Virus record (IMG/VR): IMGVR_UViG_3300033141_003979
Span: 45,771 to 109,770 of that record
From: a virus
Length of the DNA stretch: 64,000 bases
Reading direction: 5' to 3' (one strand)
Position numbers and translations under genes: made by a program. The notes beneath the pieces are model-generated. The model was not told the DNA's origin, did not search any database, and saw nothing but the letters and a program-made list of their open reading frames with translations. This document shows, one piece after another, positions 5,301-62,024 of the stretch; the stretch's first letter is position 1, and each line of letters starts with the position of its first letter.

Positions 5301-7549
5301 GTTATTCCAGCAGAACAATCAACAGCCCCTTCCTGTGCCCCTTCATGTAAACACCAACCATAATCATCATTCTGAGCATGTATATATGCTTTACCTTTTG
5401 TTACATTTTTCTGACCTATGCTATCTATCCCAGCCGGATCATCAGCATCAATGGCCACATATCCTCCATGATGAACATCCAAATCTTCTACAAAATTATA
5501 GAAGGCGGCAAGAATAGGCAAATACCCACCAGATACCTTATCTAAATGCTCTCTCCACCAATATGCCCCCATGTAAAATGGCTGATGATGAAGTCCACCA
5601 CCCCATACTAGATTATGCAACCACACCCCATCATTTGCATTTCCGTCGAGCCAATCCCCACGATCATCGCCCGTAGCTGCCGGGTCAATTCCGCTTTCAC
5701 TCATTATAAAAGGTTTGCTTATTTGATCATCTAATATATCTAATGACCACGAAATACTCCAATCGTATAAATCACTCCCACAAATGCTATTGATGGTACA
5801 TTTATCATCAGCCTCGTCGGTATATTCATGAATGTTAACAACATCTAAATTGATACTAGCGACATTATTATCATAATCAGTTTGACGCCAATAGGTTACT
5901 TCCCATACTGAAGTTCCAAGAAGATGTACGTTGGCTGCGGAGTCGATTGATTTCATATAAACGGCGAAGTCATCAGCAGCAGAATACCAATCAGCATCGT
6001 TTGGATGATGCTCATTGCAAAATTCCCAAAGAAATACAGCAGTAGAGTATCCCCAACGAGCAACACAATAACGCCACCACATTTGAATATGCCATTTTGA
6101 CTTAGTAGTTAAAGCTTGGTTATAGCCATCACCTGTATCCGTCCAACTTCCATCATCCTCATCAAGATGTCTAGGAACCCAATCGTTTTTCTCAAAGATA
6201 ACATACTGGAGTTTGACCCCTGCTGCTTCCGCTGCTTCCACCTGTTTATCAAAAAAGAAAGATGGCTTTTGTTCTATAACTCTATGCCTATCTGCGCTTT
6301 CGTAACGCATAATTTCTTGATCATATACTCCATCATCATCTGTATCAGCCTTAATGCTTAACTTAGCTATCCAAACTTCACCATAAGAACAGTTATCAAG
6401 GTAGAAACTCAAATAGTCCCCATACGTGGTGCCATCAGCAACTTGGTGATCAAATGTCACTACTGTTGAGTCCCAATCGGTAGTAGCAATCTCATGCCCA
6501 AAACCACCCAAAGTATTGTTGCCCCGGATAGATTCGTAAAAGAAAGCCCCTGTATAATCACATTTATCATCTCCGGCCGGGAATCCATGAGTCTTTAATG
6601 TAAATCCGTGATCTTCTCCTATATCTACAGGGCCAACTAGACCGACAATTTTATAAATAACTGTCATCTGGTAATCAGGAAAGGTATCTTCTGGACCACC
6701 ATAATCAACAAAATCATGGGAATATCTCGTGTTCTCCCAAGGGCCTGTCCATATACCACAAGCACCATCCGTGACAGTAATATACCAAGACAACTCCATA
6801 TCTGTATATGCTTCTTCAAAGTCCAAGGGCATTTCAAACCCTTCGTTGCCTGAACTTTTATCTACCCGGATATAGTCTGCCCACTGATTACAATAAGCTG
6901 CTTCCGGTCCCATCCACTGGCGGTGAATATTTGCCCCTTTACCATCAAAAGAAGTATAACCAGTTGAAGTTTCCATATCTGCCCCACCTATGGGCCAAAA
7001 AATATCTCCACTCCCACTATACTCAAAATATCGAGTATCGGTTGCAACCTGGATAAAACCCTTTTTAGTTGGTGCTCGTGCTTCAAATGAGCCTGTGGCA
7101 GCAGAGGATGTGCCCCCTACATCTTCAGCAACTATTGAGTATTGCCATGTACCGACCTTATCCGGTTTAAACCGAATTTTGAATGAATCGTCATCTAGTT
7201 TTTCTGTAAGATGATAATTTGATTGAGGGAAGGTCCCAGATACCTCCATGTCACGATAATAAAATCCAGGTACGTCATAAGCGACGGAATCAGGGCCAGT
7301 CATTGTGCAAGTAACAGTTACTCCTTCCTCTGGAGTCACATTTTCTGGCTGGCTACCATCTTCAACATAAACCTCATAAGGATTATCAAATGTTCCTGTG
7401 AGATCAAAAGTAAGCTCATACTTCTCATAACAGTTAACTGGATCTGAGTTCTCCGTTACGTTTGAGATAACAGGCACAGCTCCCCAAGCTAATGTTGGAA
7501 ACAACATTAGAAATGCAAATATAAATATCTTTTTCATCAGTTTTTTCAA
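2369..7549 (-). CDS. Giant exported protein: DUF5060-like, GH clan A-like barrel, PQQ-type propeller, helical C-terminus
   Basis: 1726 residues. Residues 1-24 form a Sec signal peptide (basic start, hydrophobic core, AWG-A cleavage site). Residues 25-160 resemble the DUF5060 beta domain found before glycoside hydrolases. Residues 170-700 look like a TIM-barrel hydrolase: WEFCNEH (candidate acid/base Glu513) and IMSESG (candidate nucleophile Glu618) sit as in clan GH-A enzymes. Residues 840-1310 contain PQQ/BamB-like propeller blades (GKVYALDTSDGTTDW and relatives). The last ~400 residues are helical and Trp/Tyr-rich, perhaps an alpha/alpha toroid. The start is TTG 7549 or ATG 7537. It could be a depolymerase acting on host polysaccharide, but a Sec signal is odd for a virion protein. 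The function is inferred from motifs. Confidence 0.75.
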   Translation of the reverse strand: MKKLMKKIFIFAFLMLFPTLAWGAVPVISNVTENSDPVNCYEKYELTFDLTGTFDNPYEVYVEDGSQPENVTPEEGVTVTCTMTGPDSVAYDVPGFYYRDMEVSGTFPQSNYHLTEKLDDDSFKIRFKPDKVGTWQYSIVAEDVGGTSSAATGSFEARAPTKKGFIQVATDTRYFEYSGSGDIFWPIGGADMETSTGYTSFDGKGANIHRQWMGPEAAYCNQWADYIRVDKSSGNEGFEMPLDFEEAYTDMELSWYITVTDGACGIWTGPWENTRYSHDFVDYGGPEDTFPDYQMTVIYKIVGLVGPVDIGEDHGFTLKTHGFPAGDDKCDYTGAFFYESIRGNNTLGGFGHEIATTDWDSTVVTFDHQVADGTTYGDYLSFYLDNCSYGEVWIAKLSIKADTDDDGVYDQEIMRYESADRHRVIEQKPSFFFDKQVEAAEAAGVKLQYVIFEKNDWVPRHLDEDDGSWTDTGDGYNQALTTKSKWHIQMWWRYCVARWGYSTAVFLWEFCNEHHPNDADWYSAADDFAVYMKSIDSAANVHLLGTSVWEVTYWRQTDYDNNVASINLDVVNIHEYTDEADDKCTINSICGSDLYDWSISWSLDILDDQISKPFIMSESGIDPAATGDDRGDWLDGNANDGVWLHNLVWGGGLHHQPFYMGAYWWREHLDKVSGGYLPILAAFYNFVEDLDVHHGGYVAIDADDPAGIDSIGQKNVTKGKAYIHAQNDDYGWCLHEGAQEGAVDCSAGITPTNPNNLTFTMTGMADTDFILEEWDTDTGLINSTDVIESNGDALITIPIAATSDDVAYKIYLPEWPTRGGSMDRHYFVPYDLELDSGVLNLRWRRFLGERIEIEAEPVVVGDVVYIGLMNGKVYALDTSDGTTDWSYPCGGALPSALTVDRDKDNNLRILAASTDGYLYCLSDAGNLIWSADTGDSLWVTPAVHNNKVFVGNIGGNFKAYDFSTGVLLWTYPADSPISCTAAIGEVETTPIESAIFFQSGANTAYALRENGTELWTATMKGVFTKRTMAVYGKGDGGTKVVIFVTRKPGNDYSFVGENAPNALLYDTEPVGYKAIATVLSEYNTYYTAYGERRPLFYFNATDGTDLWSGSAYTPLYLGYWGLYTPVISNDGYAYFVPYGGAYTDPLDHDDRLVKVDLDDGSCIQIADEDDSPTFVMRPDEIGRYTLVNDRFYQTLSEDIGYYDIETPALNTTVYGDGFGTHRKPLLIDSTPTTIYPDGMHKFFTRFGCSTTGGIGGANDSVSPVVVAGNEVFWVSWGHLFCLTHESPEASNTYDPLDLFVAPPDLGLSRNNVKTLLNAVVQDIVDDDAHLDPATQMFWAQSSTAPEEVFWKDGEVLRTLSDALPYLEEPLKANTILYLSNLVDTYILDSNLYAYVWGCLDYDTHSLETTCNNTSPYRRWRWSNRNDIADRIYGLYKYCQRSDDWAKLDEALGGGDVWDFVVDTMYALFDNDANHTWEADSGFFEWVTWTSGNFHPVKQVAAMYAMIEMANYRGDAATEAEVQGYYDDMITAWFTTCNDAATGWVNFARAAHPGTDDNYTDWEDWGYSQGLSPMPAEGNLTATNDFRQVHDIDSTQSYSSWVAKAPFRLHGFDPIIPELGATIQSNASDIVSDFMASVEKYNPWWYMGDFSHAVIVGSNEIDSSSPALAADMFQAKIYIQDELFEDMVNYLPWKFEDYDYKDMFYIQNLTALLGADYEDTVVMILTP

Positions 7550-10739: not shown

Positions 10740-11405
10740 TTACACTAGTTTTCGTTCTACCACTTGATTGCCAGTTCCCGTTGCCTGAGTATTGCCTATA
10801 ATAGCCCAACAACCAGCATCGATCCCAAGCAAACGGACAAAGGCACGAGACGCAGCAGAAGCATATAGCAAAAGGCTGCTAAGTTGATCACCTGATGTTC
10901 CCATTATACTGACACCAGTGAAGTTTTTTGCACTGTCAAAAGATGAACAACGAAGTATCATACTAACCCCATCGCCTGCCTCTCCTCTAAGAATTATACA
11001 TAATTCTTCACCCGAATACGCTGAATGAAGATTTGCAGAATAGGCATCATCGTTTGCCAAAGAAAATACAATGAATCCTGTCCGAGATGGAGTAACCGGG
11101 GCTGCATTGACCCCATTAAAAGAAGTAATATTTGGCCCCATTGTTGCTGAAATTTCACCAGCCGCCGAATTAACAACAACTGACCATCTCCCTTTGCCCA
11201 TCAATGCGTTCCGCATCCGATCAGTAAAAAAAGTCTCCCCGGCAAGAAAGAAATCAAAAGCAGCAGAACAAGCCATTGACCCTCCGCTGAGGCCCGTTAT
11301 TGCCCCATCGGATTCAACAGTAAGATCTCCACTACTTCCAATTTCTAAATCATTTCCTCCGTGGGGCTGATACACATTTGTTTGATAAGTATCATCTTGA
11401 GGCAT
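10740..11405 (-). CDS. Tandem paralogue A3, putative virion decoration/fibre protein (221 aa)
   Basis: First in transcription order of the three-copy family. It opens with MPQDDTYQTNVYQ and has DLTVESDGAITG, RMRNALMGKGRWSV, GEELCIILRG and AFVRLLGIDAGCWAI at the same relative positions as A1 and A2. GGAGGAGGA precedes the ATG. The role as a capsid surface protein is inferred only from position and the repeated gene architecture. Confidence 0.75.
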   Translation of the reverse strand: MPQDDTYQTNVYQPHGGNDLEIGSSGDLTVESDGAITGLSGGSMACSAAFDFFLAGETFFTDRMRNALMGKGRWSVVVNSAAGEISATMGPNITSFNGVNAAPVTPSRTGFIVFSLANDDAYSANLHSAYSGEELCIILRGEAGDGVSMILRCSSFDSAKNFTGVSIMGTSGDQLSSLLLYASAASRAFVRLLGIDAGCWAIIGNTQATGTGNQVVERKLV

Positions 11406-45627: not shown

Positions 45628-46689
45628 ATGGCAAGACGAACAAGGCAAACAGTAGAGGCAGAACCACAAACACAAGCAAATGAAGTTAATCGACAAGATC
45701 TCATTGATGCCCTGACTAAAGTCAACCCCGGTTTGGCAAAAAAAGAATTGATTGAGCAGTCAACCCATTTCATTTTTGACGACGACAAGATTTGGACTTA
45801 CAATGATCAGATCACTATTATGCATAAATTCAACACCGGATTAACAGGGGCTGTCAAGGCAGAGAAATTCTTCAAGCTTCTTGATAAAATCCCCGATGAA
45901 ACAATCCAGATCTCAGGTACCGAAAAGGGGAAAATAAAACTCTCCGGCAAAAAGATCAAGGCCACTATCAATATTGATCCAGATATCAAACTTCAGCCCA
46001 TCCAGGTTCCCGGCATCAATTCTAAGCAGTGGGAGGAGTTGCCTAAAAACTTCTCAGATGCCATCGCTTTTGCCGCCTTTTCGGCAAGTCGAAACATGGC
46101 CCGACCAGAACTTACTTGCATTTGGATTACGGACGGGCAGGCCGTATCATGCGATTCCTACCGGGGCACCAAATATCAGTTGGATTCCAAGATGGAGCAG
46201 GACTTTCTTCTCCCCGCAACAGCCGCAGTAGAGCTGGCAAAGTATACCCCCTACAAAATCATTATTGACGGGGGATGGCTGCATTTCATCAATAATGAGA
46301 AAACCTCATTTTCCTGCCGGACATATTATGATGAAGAATATCCCGCAATGATCTGGAAGTTCTTTGAAATAGAAGGGCAAAAGATAGTGCTCCCAGACGA
46401 CTTTCTTGATGCAATCGGAAGGGCAGAGATCATGCTGACTGCGGACTTTGATCTTGATCGATTTGTATTACTAACTATGGAGGCCAATACATTAACCTGT
46501 AAAGGGGAGGGGATATATGGAGAGTTTGAAGAAACTACAGATATTGATTACAGCGGGGAAAAGATTGAAATCAAGGTCCATCCTGTTCTGCTCTCGCAAA
46601 TCCTAAAGCACATCCAGGTTATGGTTGTTGGAGAAAGGCTCCTATTTCATGGGGATAAATTTCAGCATGGAGTTTGTTTGAGCTGCTAA
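45628..46689 (+). CDS. Sliding clamp, DnaN-like
   Basis: 353 residues, the size of bacterial beta clamps. Repeated clamp-like units are visible: LTGAVKAEKFFKLLDKIPDE, GKIKLSGKKIKATINI, QKIVLPDDFLDAIGRAEIML, and the final VHPVLLSQILKHIQVMVVGE. AAGGAGGAAAG precedes the ATG. It tethers the fused polymerase encoded downstream. Confidence 0.8.
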   Translation: MARRTRQTVEAEPQTQANEVNRQDLIDALTKVNPGLAKKELIEQSTHFIFDDDKIWTYNDQITIMHKFNTGLTGAVKAEKFFKLLDKIPDETIQISGTEKGKIKLSGKKIKATINIDPDIKLQPIQVPGINSKQWEELPKNFSDAIAFAAFSASRNMARPELTCIWITDGQAVSCDSYRGTKYQLDSKMEQDFLLPATAAVELAKYTPYKIIIDGGWLHFINNEKTSFSCRTYYDEEYPAMIWKFFEIEGQKIVLPDDFLDAIGRAEIMLTADFDLDRFVLLTMEANTLTCKGEGIYGEFEETTDIDYSGEKIEIKVHPVLLSQILKHIQVMVVGERLLFHGDKFQHGVCLSC

Positions 46690-51991: not shown

Positions 51992-52020
51992 TTGATTTAA
52001 TTATAAAAATACTATATATT
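51992..52020 (+). promoter_or_regulatory. Promoter of homing-endonuclease cassette 1
   Basis: TTGATT (51992-51997), 17 bases, TATATT (52015-52020); TATATA at 52013 is an alternative. The surrounding CCTTGATTT and the following TTATGTT are shared with the promoter at 60910, showing common descent of the two cassettes. Confidence 0.7.
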
Positions 52021-52057
52021 TATGTTAGATAATAAAGTAACAAATCATTCAAATTTC

Positions 52058-52124
52058 AGGCTTGAGAATCTTCATATTGCGAAGTATGAAGGCGTTGTTA
52101 CTAACGTTATCTGTTCTCAGGCCT
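52058..52124 (+). ncRNA. Three-way-junction RNA element, copy 1
   Basis: P1: AGGCTTGAGAA (52058-52068) pairs with TTCTCAGGCCT (52114-52124), 11 bp. P2: 52070-52078 with 52083-52091, 9 bp capped by GNRA loop GCGA. P3: GCGTTG (52092-52097) with TAACGT (52102-52107), loop TTAC. All three helices are also present in copy 2 with compensatory changes. P1 ends 8 bases before GGAGA and 20 bases before the ATG of the endonuclease gene. Confidence 0.8.
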
Positions 52125-52144
52125 TTTTATTTGGAGAGTCTAAT

Positions 52145-53074
52145 ATGGGTGAAAATAAAAGAATTTTAGGTGTTTGTTTTTATTGTGGAAAGAATGCATT
52201 TTATAGATTTAAAAATGGGAAATTATGTTGTAGCAATAATGTTTCTAAATGCCCAACCGTAAGAAAAATCAATAGTGAAAAAAATAAATTTAAATTTTGT
52301 AAAATTGAACATGCTAAAAGAAAAGCAGAAGGAGGACCGATATGTGCATGTGATTGTGGCAACAGAACAAAATGGAATAAAGACAAAGGAGAATATAATA
52401 AATATATAAATGGACATTGGGTTCGACATAACAATCCTAGTCGTGGTAAAGATAAATATGCTAAAAAAAAGAGAAGAAGGAGCCCATTATGTAAATGTAT
52501 CCCTCAATGCGGACAAAGAACAAAATGGAATCCTTGCACAGGAAAATATGATGATTATATCAAATATCACCATTTAAAAGGAGCCAAAAGAGACAAAAAG
52601 TTTTGTGAAAATCAATCTAAAAGAATGATTAAAAATAACCCTATGCAAAAACCAGAAATTGCTAAAAAGCAATCAGAAAGTTTAAAGGCGTTAGGTGACG
52701 ATCATCCATCAAGAAGACTAGAGCACCGCAAAAGAACATCTGAATATGCATTAAATGGGCATGCAACCTATATGTGTTCTTGCAATTCAAATCCATCTAA
52801 GCCACAAGCAGTATTATTTGAATTGATTAAATCTTTATACTCAACTGCTATACTCAATCATCCATCCTTAAATTTTTCTATTGATATAGCCATTCCTGAT
52901 CTAAATATTGCTATTGAATATGATGAGCCGTATTGGCATGATTTTGAAAAGGATAAAATAAGACAAAGAAAATTAGAGACAATAGGATGGAGATTTTTAA
53001 GATATATAAGTTATGTACCCACCATCAATGAATTAAAAAATAATATTTTAAATATAATTAACAAGGAGGGATAA
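52145..53074 (+). CDS. Homing endonuclease, Vsr-like/EDxHD PD-(D/E)XK type (309 aa)
   Basis: Start at ATG 52145 (GGAGA upstream); the in-frame extension to 52022 is the structured leader. Residues ~50-150 hold zinc-binding modules CACDCGNRTKWNKDKGEYNK and CKCIPQCGQRTKWNP. Residues ~225-309 form a Vsr-like nuclease: FSIDIAIPDLNIAIEYDEPY, WHDFEKDKIRQRKLETIGWR, FLRYIS, with the E-x-D..HD arrangement of I-Bth0305I-type enzymes. Intergenic location between exonuclease and clamp loader, AT-rich, own promoter: a free-standing mobile gene. Confidence 0.8.
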   Translation: MGENKRILGVCFYCGKNAFYRFKNGKLCCSNNVSKCPTVRKINSEKNKFKFCKIEHAKRKAEGGPICACDCGNRTKWNKDKGEYNKYINGHWVRHNNPSRGKDKYAKKKRRRSPLCKCIPQCGQRTKWNPCTGKYDDYIKYHHLKGAKRDKKFCENQSKRMIKNNPMQKPEIAKKQSESLKALGDDHPSRRLEHRKRTSEYALNGHATYMCSCNSNPSKPQAVLFELIKSLYSTAILNHPSLNFSIDIAIPDLNIAIEYDEPYWHDFEKDKIRQRKLETIGWRFLRYISYVPTINELKNNILNIINKEG

Positions 53075-54091: not shown

Positions 54092-54577
54092 ATGGTAACC
54101 GCACGTAAACAGATTGGATGTAAACTCAATGCTGAATTGTGGATGCAAATTAAGATATTAGCACTGAAGAAAGGTATCACAAGTGGAGAGATGCTTGAGA
54201 TGGCGATGAAGGAATATCTTGAATTGAAAGATTGGACAGCTCGCATGACAATCTCCACAAAAAAAATAATAAATATAGAACTTCATGAAGAACCACCACT
54301 ATGTGAATGTGGATGCAGAGAGAAAGTGATATTAGGTACAAATGGAAGGTGGAATAGATTTATCCCCGGACATCATGCTCATGGTAAAAGAGGCCCAAAT
54401 TCTCCTAATTGGAAAGGAGGAATAGCAGATTATGAAAAGATGAAAAGTCTTGCTAAAAAACGAGATATTCCAATAGGAAAATTAAAAGAAAGACTCAGAC
54501 AAATGGCATTAAGTACTATAACTCAAACAACTAAGGAGGTTGAACAATGCCGACAATTACAGAACATATTAAGTTAG
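54092..54577 (+). CDS. Ribbon-helix-helix-like protein fused to a CxCGC zinc module (161 aa)
   Basis: Residues 1-50 (KQIGCKLNAELWMQIKILAL then KKGITSGEMLEMAMKEYLEL) look like a ribbon-helix-helix DNA-binding domain. Residues 68-110 (PPLCECGCREKVILGTNGRW then NRFIPGHHAHGKRGPNSPNW) are the same zinc module seen in both homing endonucleases. The tail is helical and basic. It may be a transcription regulator that captured a DNA-binding module, or a nuclease remnant. It overlaps the next gene by 31 bases. Confidence 0.65.
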   Translation: MVTARKQIGCKLNAELWMQIKILALKKGITSGEMLEMAMKEYLELKDWTARMTISTKKIINIELHEEPPLCECGCREKVILGTNGRWNRFIPGHHAHGKRGPNSPNWKGGIADYEKMKSLAKKRDIPIGKLKERLRQMALSTITQTTKEVEQCRQLQNILS

Positions 54578-59364: not shown

Positions 59365-59670
59365 ATGGATGACAAAACACGAACAGAAATAATGAAAATG
59401 GCTGTTGAATTATATGATAGAAAACACAATACTCCAGAAATTCAAGAAGCAATAAAACAGTTATTTACTAATAAATCTACCAGTCAAATAAATTTTATAG
59501 TTACAAGTGCTATTGATATGGTAAAATCATTTGACAAGGCCGTTGATGATGCAGGGGGATCTGGATGGCAAATAGAGGAATTATTAAAAATGACTTTTAT
59601 GGATTTACTTTCTTCTTTAGCCACAAATCATGTGAGGTTTGTTTTTGAAAGGCCTGAAGAAAATGCTTGA
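59365..59670 (+). CDS. Unknown helical protein (101 aa; longer GTG start possible)
   Basis: AAAGGAGA precedes ATG 59365. A GTG at 59278, overlapping the previous stop, would add 29 residues containing YQCPFPCEI. The shorter form is helical (KMAVELYDRKHNTPEIQEAI, SAIDMVKSFDKAVDDAGGSG). Not recognised. It overlaps the Rad50-like gene by eight bases. Confidence 0.55.
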   Translation: MDDKTRTEIMKMAVELYDRKHNTPEIQEAIKQLFTNKSTSQINFIVTSAIDMVKSFDKAVDDAGGSGWQIEELLKMTFMDLLSSLATNHVRFVFERPEENA

Positions 59671-60913
59671 TTCAATTCACCTCATTAACTTTCGTAGCCA
59701 TAAGAATACCTTCATAGAACTCCATCCTGGTATCAATATTTTCACAGGTCCAAATGACAGTGGAAAAACTAATGTACTCCGGGGCATTGATCTCGTTGTC
59801 AATAATCACCCAGCCGGAGACGATTATATTTCAAAATGGGGTGGGAATCTAGATGTCAAGCTTGGCATTGATGGCAAGCAAGTTGGCAGATTCAGAGATG
59901 CTCATTGGGACGAAGAGCTTAAAAGATTCAAGGCAGGAACAAAAAACTACTATACCCTGACTCATGAGGATGGAGAGGTTGAGCCCCCATTCAAATCATT
60001 TGGCAGGGGAAAGGTTCCAGAAATCATTGCCAATCTTTTGAATATTTCTTCAACCAACATTCATTTCCAACTTGATGGACCTTTTCTACTCAACAAATCT
60101 CCAGCAGACGTGGCAAGGCATTATAACGAGATAGTAAATCTTGACATCATAGACAGGACCATCTCCAACATTGCCGGCACACTGCGTAAGGAAAGGGCTG
60201 AACTAAAAGTTGAAAAGGCCAAGATCGAAGAGAAAACAGAAAAGTTAGAAGAATACGATTGGCTGCCAAAGGCAGAGTGTGAGCTTGCCCGATTAGAGAA
60301 GATGCAGAGGGCTATCAGTGGTCTAAAATCTGACTGGACAGAACTGCATGGCCTGATCAGGGATCATGAAAGGCTAACTGCTGTAAGCATAGAATTAGAT
60401 AAAATCGTCAAGCATGATGAAGGAGTAGAAAAATTATTATGGTTAGACAAAGAAATCAAGGCCGGGGATGTAGAATATCTGGCCCTGAAAAGCCTGATTG
60501 ATAAACTTGAGGCACTGACAGAAACATCCCAACAGATGGACAGGATCGTCAAATATGAAAATACAGTGATCCAATTGTTGCAGCAGGCAGAGAAAGTCAA
60601 GTTACTGAGGGGAGACGTAGAGGCACTAAAGGCAATCGTTGAAGAGGCAGCAAGACTAAAGAAAGAGGAAAGTAAATGCCAGGAAATTATCAAACATGAA
60701 GATGAAGTTTCCAGATTGGTTGAATTGGATACTAAGATTGCCGAGAACACAGACGAATACAATGCCTTGTTTGATCTTGTTGAAAAATGGGAAGGACTGG
60801 ATGGACAGCTTGTAACAGCGGACAATAATCTGGCAAATCTTGAGTTAGAATTCAAGGAGGCGATGCCAGAAATTTGTCCGTTGTGTGAGCAAGAGATTAA
60901 AAATACTCCTTGA
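59663..60913 (+). CDS. Rad50/SbcC-like ATPase, N-terminal half ending at the zinc hook
   Basis: 416 residues. ATG 59663: LDSIHLINFRSHKNTFIEL, FTGPNDSGKTNVLRGID (Walker A, about 29-37), and a Q-loop region (NIHFQLDGPFLL). A long coiled coil follows, ending ICPLCEQEI (zinc hook) ten residues from the stop. No signature motif or Walker B is present, so a second subunit is required; it begins at 63832. The stop TGA lies inside the TTGATT box of the inserted endonuclease cassette. Confidence 0.85.
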   Translation: MLDSIHLINFRSHKNTFIELHPGINIFTGPNDSGKTNVLRGIDLVVNNHPAGDDYISKWGGNLDVKLGIDGKQVGRFRDAHWDEELKRFKAGTKNYYTLTHEDGEVEPPFKSFGRGKVPEIIANLLNISSTNIHFQLDGPFLLNKSPADVARHYNEIVNLDIIDRTISNIAGTLRKERAELKVEKAKIEEKTEKLEEYDWLPKAECELARLEKMQRAISGLKSDWTELHGLIRDHERLTAVSIELDKIVKHDEGVEKLLWLDKEIKAGDVEYLALKSLIDKLEALTETSQQMDRIVKYENTVIQLLQQAEKVKLLRGDVEALKAIVEEAARLKKEESKCQEIIKHEDEVSRLVELDTKIAENTDEYNALFDLVEKWEGLDGQLVTADNNLANLELEFKEAMPEICPLCEQEIKNTP

Positions 60914-60938
60914 TTTTCTCTAAAAGAAAGACTATACT
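60910..60938 (+). promoter_or_regulatory. Promoter of homing-endonuclease cassette 2
   Basis: TTGATT (60910-60915), 17 bases, TATACT (60933-60938). Flanks CCTTGATTT and TTATGTT are shared with the promoter at 51992. It overlaps the last codons of the Rad50-like gene. Confidence 0.75.
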
Positions 60939-60971
60939 TATGTTGAACAGTATGATAACGATCCAGAATTC

Positions 60972-61040
60972 AGAGCTTGAGAGTTTTCATGTCGTGAGGC
61001 ATGGAAGTGTTGTTATCGACACTGTTCCCTCTCAGGCTTT
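60972..61040 (+). ncRNA. Three-way-junction RNA element, copy 2
   Basis: P1: AGAGCTTGAGAG (60972-60983) with CTCTCAGGCTTT (61029-61040), 12 bp. P2: 60985-60993 with 60998-61006, 9 bp with GNRA loop GTGA. P3: GTGTTG (61007-61012) with CGACAC (61017-61022), loop TTAT. Compared with copy 1, many pairs change on both sides (A-T to G-C, C-G to T-A) while pairing is kept. It ends 7 bases before GGGGA and 19 before the ATG. Confidence 0.8.
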
Positions 61041-61059
61041 TTCTTTTGGGGAAATTGAC

Positions 61060-62024
61060 ATGAGTAGATTTAGAAGGAAAGATGCAGCTCCATTGTGTGC
61101 ATGTGGCTGTGGAGTATATGTTAAATGGAATATAAATTACAAAGGATGGAATAGATTTATTCAAGGGCATAATTCTAAGGGCGAAAACAATCCTATGTAT
61201 GGTAAAGAATCTTGGAGTAAAGATAAAACTAATATCTTCTCAGAAGAAATATTGAAAATAATATCTAATGCCAAAAAAGGTGAAAATAATCCTATGTATG
61301 GCAAAGTGCCTTGGAATAAAGGTAAGACTGATGTTTATTCAGAAAAAGCCTTGAGGATGATGTCCAATATCAAAATAGGCAAGAAACGCTCTACTAAGAC
61401 AAAACAGAAAATGTCTATTGCGAGGATGGGCGAAAAGAATCCAAATTATGGTAAAAGGCACACCATTGAGACAAAACAAAAAATTTCACAGACCCGGATT
61501 GAAAATAATCATATACCTTGGAATAAAGGCAAAAAACTCCTTGAATTTTCTAAAAGAATGATGGGAGAAAAAATCCTATGTATGGGAAAATAGGAAAAGA
61601 CAACCCTAATTATGGCACAAAACGGACTCCCGAACAGCGAGAAAAATTGAAAGGTAGATGTGGTCCATTATCGGCTGCCTGGAAAGGAGGCATAGCCGCA
61701 GACCCATATTGTGATGTTTGGTTGGATTGGGAGTATAAACAATCTATCAAAGATCGTGACAATAACAAATGCCAGAATCCTGATTGCTGGGGGAAGTGTA
61801 ATCATTTACCTCTACATTTACATCATATAAATAATGATAAAAAAGATTGCCGCCCCAAAAATATCATAACACTATGCAATAGTTGCAACGGGAGAGCACG
61901 GGGGAGCAAAGAATTTTCAAGAGAATGGTGGGTAAAATTCTATCAAAATATCATGACTAAAAAATATGAATACGAATTTGTTCAGAAGGCAAGAGGTTTT
62001 TTGAGGGAAATAAGCAGCCTATGA
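61060..62024 (+). pseudogene. HNH homing endonuclease with NUMOD-type repeats, frameshifted
   Basis: The first frame (61060-61593) has the zinc module PLCACGCGVYVKWNINYKGW followed by several NUMOD-like repeats (ENNPMYGKE, ENNPMYGKV, KNPNYGKR). The second (61578-62024) continues GKDNPNYGTKRTPEQREKL and ends with an HNH core: CQNPDCWGKCNHLPLHLHHI, NDKKDCRPKNIITLCNSCN. One extra A in the run near 61566-61571 would restore GENNPMYGK across the junction. It could be a real inactivating deletion or a homopolymer error. Confidence 0.8.

Follow-up and report, generated by a model that had tools for sequence, protein, structure and literature searches.

A probable C4-like antisense RNA element in front of phage homing endonuclease genes

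Two homing endonuclease genes of different families in one viral genome are preceded by the same promoter and structured RNA, which raises the question of what this RNA is and what it does for the genes behind it. The window analysed here is a stretch of 64,000 nucleotides (positions 45,771 to 109,770) of the IMG/VR virus record IMGVR_UViG_3300033141_003979, which is 109,770 bases long. From the letters of this window, the original prediction had described a mobile promoter and a three-way-junction RNA (helices P1, P2 and P3) before one endonuclease gene (copy 1), and the same architecture before a different endonuclease at 60910 (copy 2). The promoter, the three helices, the GCGA and TTAC loops and the coordinates of copy 1 proved right, with P1 consisting of 10 pairs and a U-G pair. 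Copy 2, at 60910-61062, has the same arrangement, and the downstream genes are indeed different: EDxHD/Vsr-like for copy 1 and a NUMOD3 ORF with an HNH-like ORF for copy 2 (Table 1). The two ORFs of copy 2 may be separate genes or the parts of a single endonuclease gene interrupted by a frameshift, and the break near 61578-61593 may reflect a pseudogene, a sequencing error or a real frameshift. Two further copies lie outside the window, at 5728-5815 of the virus record upstream of an HNH-like ORF and at 11235-11325 upstream of an EDxHD/Vsr-like nuclease. These two copies, the long-range a1/b1 complementarity described below and the large phage family of such RNAs had gone unnoticed in the original prediction.

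Table 1. Features of the two cassettes in the window (window coordinates)
Feature	Position	Strand	Basis
Copy 1 promoter: TTGATT (51992-51997), 17-bp spacer, TATATT (52015-52020)	51992-52020	+	sequence; predicted start
Copy 1 a1 site TAGATAA, complementary to a' TTATCTG	52026-52032	+	family test, 0/10000 permutations
Copy 1 b1 site AGTAACAA, complementary to b' TTGTTACT	52036-52043	+	permutation and joint tests
Copy 1 three-way-junction RNA core	52059-52123	+	fold, covariation
Copy 1 P1, 10 pairs (52059-52068/52114-52123) and U-G	52059-52069 with 52113-52123	+	
Copy 1 P2, 9 bp, GCGA loop	52070-52078/52083-52091	+	
Copy 1 P3, 6 bp, UUAC loop	52092-52097/52102-52107	+	
Copy 1 b' antisense segment (P3 loop and inner P3)	52095-52102	+	b1/b' complementarity
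Copy 1 a' antisense segment (J3/1)	52107-52113	+	a1/a' complementarity
Copy 1 U-run directly 3' of P1, terminator-like	52124-52132	+	sequence
Copy 1 Shine-Dalgarno GGAGA	52133-52137	+	sequence
Copy 1 gene: EDxHD/Vsr-like homing endonuclease, Cys-rich N-terminal modules	52145-53074 (ATG 52145)	+	MTES_1575 below Pfam cut-off; phrog_3339 homing endonuclease
Copy 2 promoter: TTGATT, 17-bp spacer, TATACT	60910-60938	+	sequence
Copy 2 a1 site GAACAG	60945-60950	+	a1/a' test
Copy 2 b1 site TGATAACGAT	60953-60962	+	b1/b' and joint tests
Copy 2 three-way-junction core: P1 60974-60983/61029-61038, P2 60985-61006, P3 61007-61022	60974-61038	+	fold, covariation
Copy 2 b' segment GTTGTTATCG	61009-61018	+	b1/b' test
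Copy 2 a' segment CTGTTC	61022-61027	+	a1/a' test
Copy 2 U-run	61039-61047	+	sequence
Copy 2 gene: NUMOD3 ORF 61060-61593 and overlapping HNH-like ORF 61578-62024	61060-62024	+	

Fold and spread of the RNA

The folds of copies 1 and 2 gave z-scores of -5.69 and -4.26, and 0/200 shuffles folded equally well. In the first four sequences, which were the window copies and two homologues, all 25 pairs were kept throughout (100/100 cells paired) and 8 of the 25 changed on both sides; slid controls kept 38-52%. A covariance model built on these four sequences was used together with sequence patterns to gather further IMG/VR copies, giving about 40 distinct copies in total, nearly all from IMG/VR phage contigs. 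Across 39 distinct sequences, 96.1% of cells were paired, compared to 26-56% in slid controls, and 21/25 pairs changed on both sides. There were 222 double-sided cell changes against a shuffled mean of 55.6 (0/500 shuffles), and although the alignment of the 39 was fitted to the model and so favours structure, the compensatory changes far exceed that effect. The P2 loop was a GNRA loop. The P1 motif GAGA/UCUC belonged to the search patterns, so that its invariance is partly imposed and its conservation is to be read with caution; some copies have a different P1 sequence. Together, these data confirm the three-way-junction fold of both window copies. The original prediction had staked its reading of the region on further homologues with covarying helices; such homologues were found, and the reading survives that test.

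A predicted sigma-70-like promoter stands in a similar arrangement and at a similar distance in most other copies, with single predictions often no better than shuffles. In 41/41 copies, at least six of the nine nucleotides after P1 were T, of which the search patterns imposed only three. Some contigs carry four or five copies. No named phage matched among 50,697 records (blastn, 21 concatenated elements as query). In bacterial genomes, a pattern scan gave chance matches only, among the matches listed, and no copy was found in sets of 398 and 58 genomes, a negative that is weak because few candidates were scored per genome. No Rfam family matched the element: the window scan was empty, and scans of the elements were empty or at chance level. 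The empty scan agrees with the earlier statement that the RNA is not a group I intron, since no splicing core was matched in the window. A self-cleaving ribozyme or riboswitch was also rejected, on the few conserved unpaired bases and the lack of an Rfam match, as was an OMEGA/HEARO RNA working with IscB/IsrB, for which Rfam gave no match and the nucleases are instead EDxHD, GIY-YIG or homing HNH types.

Complementarity between the RNA and its 5' leader

The P3 loop (b') was complementary to a short strand just 3' of the promoter (b1), and its letters differed in nearly every copy. Matched loops beat the loops of other copies, and 0/10000 permutations reached the observed mean. A second segment, a', located in J3/1, was complementary to a1, the strand just 5' of b1 (0/10000 permutations). 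The starts of a1 and b1 were mostly 8-10 nt apart, and the joint score of a1-b1 with a'-b' was above at least 95% of mismatched RNAs in 39/41 copies (0/5000 permutations). Two held-out copies, which were not used in finding the rule, were scored, and 0/39 mismatched RNAs were as good in each. Complementarity was also seen by inspection in L356, L358 and L114:3044, which have unrelated P1 sequences; among the three, a score was computed for L114:3044 only, on segments set by hand. The a'b' letters drift freely yet track the local a1b1.

In four GC-rich copies (two in L304 and one each in L287 and L118), a'b' was also complementary to a downstream a2b2-like site, which covers the Shine-Dalgarno sequence or the start codon and fitted better than any mismatched RNA. 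In L304, the downstream site and the loop differ together between the two copies. No a2b2 site over the downstream start region was detected in the window copies or in most nuclease copies, and in most of the latter the only complementary site found was the RNA's own 5' end. The linker from b1 to P1 was short in the nuclease copies with only their own 5' site, and about 10 nt in AT-rich copies. Elsewhere in three phage genomes, no trans site rose above background, and own best scores equalled foreign ones. The original prediction of a cis-regulatory leader stands as far as a mobile leader is concerned and falls short in describing a three-way junction only, as the RNA also has antisense segments against an upstream site and a terminator-like U-run. 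The suggested role in target recognition gained no support.

Relation to C4 and possible mode of action

C4 is an antisense switch for phage antirepressors. In the record of phage P1, the annotated order is promoters, a1 and b1, c4 RNA, a2 and b2, and then icd and ant. In the folded c4 RNA, a long helix P1 encloses two hairpins, one closed by a tetraloop and the other by a large loop; a' (CUGUCAA) lies in J3/1 and b' (CACUAAC) in the loop of P3. The element resembles the C4 RNAs of phages P1 and P7 (RF01695; RF03163, c4-a1b1) in its order of promoter, a1 and b1, RNA and gene. As in C4 of phage P1, a long helix P1 encloses P2 with its tetraloop and P3 with its large loop, a J3/1 strand is present, and a' in J3/1 and b' in the P3 loop are complementary to upstream a1 and b1. 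Antirepressor genes follow the L304 and L287 copies, and the GC-rich family members supply the link between the element and C4. In contrast to C4, the element has a GNRA loop instead of UUCG, its AT-rich copies have a1b1 only about 10 nt from P1, and most copies are without a2b2 and have homing endonucleases downstream; the window copies likewise precede homing endonucleases and not an antirepressor operon. The U-run right after P1 is absent from phage P1 c4. The RF01695 covariance model, which gave phage P1 c4 itself 68.8 bits, placed no element above its cut-off in the 13 records scanned, and the element's own covariance model (R2) did not detect phage P1 c4; the element is therefore C4-like, not a scored member of RF01695. 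Taken together, we consider a C4-like antisense architecture very probable.

Other systems share parts of this arrangement. IS10 RNA-OUT and pT181/pIP501 attenuation are examples of mobile or multicopy elements that limit themselves via antisense RNA against their own leader. Those antisense RNAs come from the opposite strand, whereas the element's antisense segments belong to the same transcript as the target site. The CI RNA of satellite phage P4 acts by antisense-driven termination with sites upstream and downstream (seqA - CI - seqC; PMC4825925) and offers a precedent for such control. Going by this description, it is like the element in that the antisense RNA comes from the leader which it targets, is complementary to sites on both sides and, as proposed for the element, brings about termination, but in P4 replication genes lie downstream. 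The T4 homing endonucleases I-TevI, segB and mobE have a leader hairpin that hides the ribosome site, with a promoter positioned to leave the hairpin's 5' arm out of late transcripts (PMC2988022). Here too a structured RNA stands before a phage homing endonuclease; the T4 leaders, however, are a simple hairpin over the ribosome site and have no antisense segments. The C4-type architecture described here precedes at least three unrelated homing-endonuclease families and is missing from Rfam. No open-access paper was found with both 'C4 antisense RNA' and 'homing endonuclease', and a description elsewhere is possible.

We think it probable that homing endonucleases have taken up a C4-like antisense attenuator as a mobile control module. 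How it would work is a more tentative matter, in which we infer the transcription start, termination, RNA release, action in trans and timing. The simplest scheme would be attenuation under antisense control. Transcripts from the cassette's own promoter would contain a1 and b1, then the three-way-junction RNA, the U-run, the ribosome-binding site and the homing-endonuclease gene. Some would end at P1 and the U-run and release a small antisense RNA, possibly once the 5' end has been removed, as in phage P1 C4. In the nascent leader, a1b1 would pair with its own a'b', closure of P1 would be delayed and the polymerase would read into the nuclease gene. The a' segment lies against the inner end of the P1 3' strand and often overlaps it, so such cis pairing is expected to impede the closing of P1 and to promote read-through. 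If antisense RNA produced earlier, or from a different copy, instead occupied a1b1 in trans, P1 and the U-run would form and the nuclease would be off. The cassette would be briefly expressed on entry into a naive cell and would then silence itself. Since each copy has its own antisense code, several cassettes in one genome could be regulated independently.

The main rival to this attenuator is a purely cis-acting leader, in which a1b1 pairs only with its own a'b', and the resulting compact pseudoknot in the 5' UTR stabilises the mRNA or sets the timing of translation. It is the main rival because the RNA's own 5' end is the only site found in most nuclease copies, and the short linker in those copies also fits. 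With a1b1 and a'b' on one transcript, their pairing may be confined to cis. We nevertheless consider it unlikely, as a second site covers the downstream start region in four copies, which is expected of antisense control, and C4 of phage P1, whose layout is the same, acts in trans (PMC8546580). P1, a1/a' and b1/b' formed together over a short linker would also seem sterically strained. A separate small RNA directed at other genes of the phage, the host or competitors, with the nuclease merely read through, would suit an RNA bracketed by a promoter and a terminator-like end and followed in some copies by non-nuclease genes. The lack of a second target above background in the three phage genomes and the way in which a'b' follows its local a1b1 while drifting argue against it, and we regard it as improbable.

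Control of the T4 type, as known for T4 homing endonucleases (PMC2988022), would rely on a hairpin that masks the ribosome site when early transcripts read through, and on a late promoter within the hairpin for making translatable mRNA. In the minimum-energy fold of each window copy, the Shine-Dalgarno sequence does pair with an upstream strand. However, a1b1 and the whole fold lie 3' of the predicted promoter, so that own-promoter transcripts would contain all of the RNA, and across the family the ribosome-site pairing is weak and A/U-driven and, in the AT-rich group, not conserved as such. T4-type control is thus very improbable, and simple occlusion of the ribosome site by the outer helix was rejected on the same weak pairing. 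Finally, 33/41 copies have an open frame running through the RNA, which in the window copies joins that of the nuclease. A coding N-terminal extension of the nuclease, with an incidental RNA fold, was suggested by this open frame in the first six copies and rejected on the wider set. The frame is without a fixed start codon, meets stops in 8/41 copies and joins out of frame in others, and its changes follow base pairing and not codons (e.g. L151 versus L157); with the strong covariation, this leaves the coding reading barely credible, although translation of the leader is conceivable.

Returning to the attenuator, it is quite possible that such immunity-type antisense RNAs are a portable self-limiting module of selfish homing endonucleases, each copy having its own drifting a1b1/a'b' code and independent regulation and firing only in cells without that copy's RNA. 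If so, selfish endonucleases would limit themselves by antisense RNA as transposons and plasmids do, and the copies would amount to a collection of naturally occurring antisense attenuators that differ in their codes. When free-standing homing endonucleases are expressed has been named an open area (PMC2988022), and the element makes this timing directly testable.

Downstream genes and setting of the cassettes

As the original prediction held for its two cassettes, the mobile promoter and RNA leader are common to unrelated nucleases. Most downstream ORFs were homing endonucleases or their remnants, from at least three families: EDxHD/Vsr-like (copy 1, L004, L006 and L134), GIY-YIG (L137 and L159) and HNH types, of which some carry NUMOD3, NUMOD4 or AP2 and some do not (copy 2 and many others). 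L118, one of the copies with an a2b2-like site, also has an HNH nuclease downstream. Other copies were followed by Bro-N (L304), an AntA antirepressor (L287), an integrase (L308), a primase-like ORF (L120), an HTH protein (L122) or an unknown ORF (L142). In L120, L122, L142:3606, L143 and L151, the RNA is followed either by degraded remains of a nuclease or by a primase-like ORF, an HTH protein or an unknown ORF, suggesting that it can outlast its nuclease or be taken over by other genes. In several copies (L142, L146 and L151), the leader frame runs up to or into the start codon of the nuclease, as in translational coupling.

L304:869-1407 holds two C4-like units in tandem, both having an a1b1, an a2b2 and a Bro-N-type ORF of their own, the shorter first ORF being assigned by eye. 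The second unit, about 450 nt after the first, cuts the first unit's ORF short. In the window, an ORF at 54092-54577 starts like CopG and continues with the Cys-x-Cys-Gly-Cys module of these nucleases, with no RNA in front. The stop codon of the upstream gene lies inside the cassette's -35 box in copy 2 (60910-60915) and at L004:674-680, and both cassettes look as though they had landed on gene ends. The gene before copy 2, a Rad50/SbcC-like ORF (59639-60913), stops at its Cys-x-x-Cys hook motif (CPLC), where the cassette starts, and its C-terminal half does not lie directly downstream.
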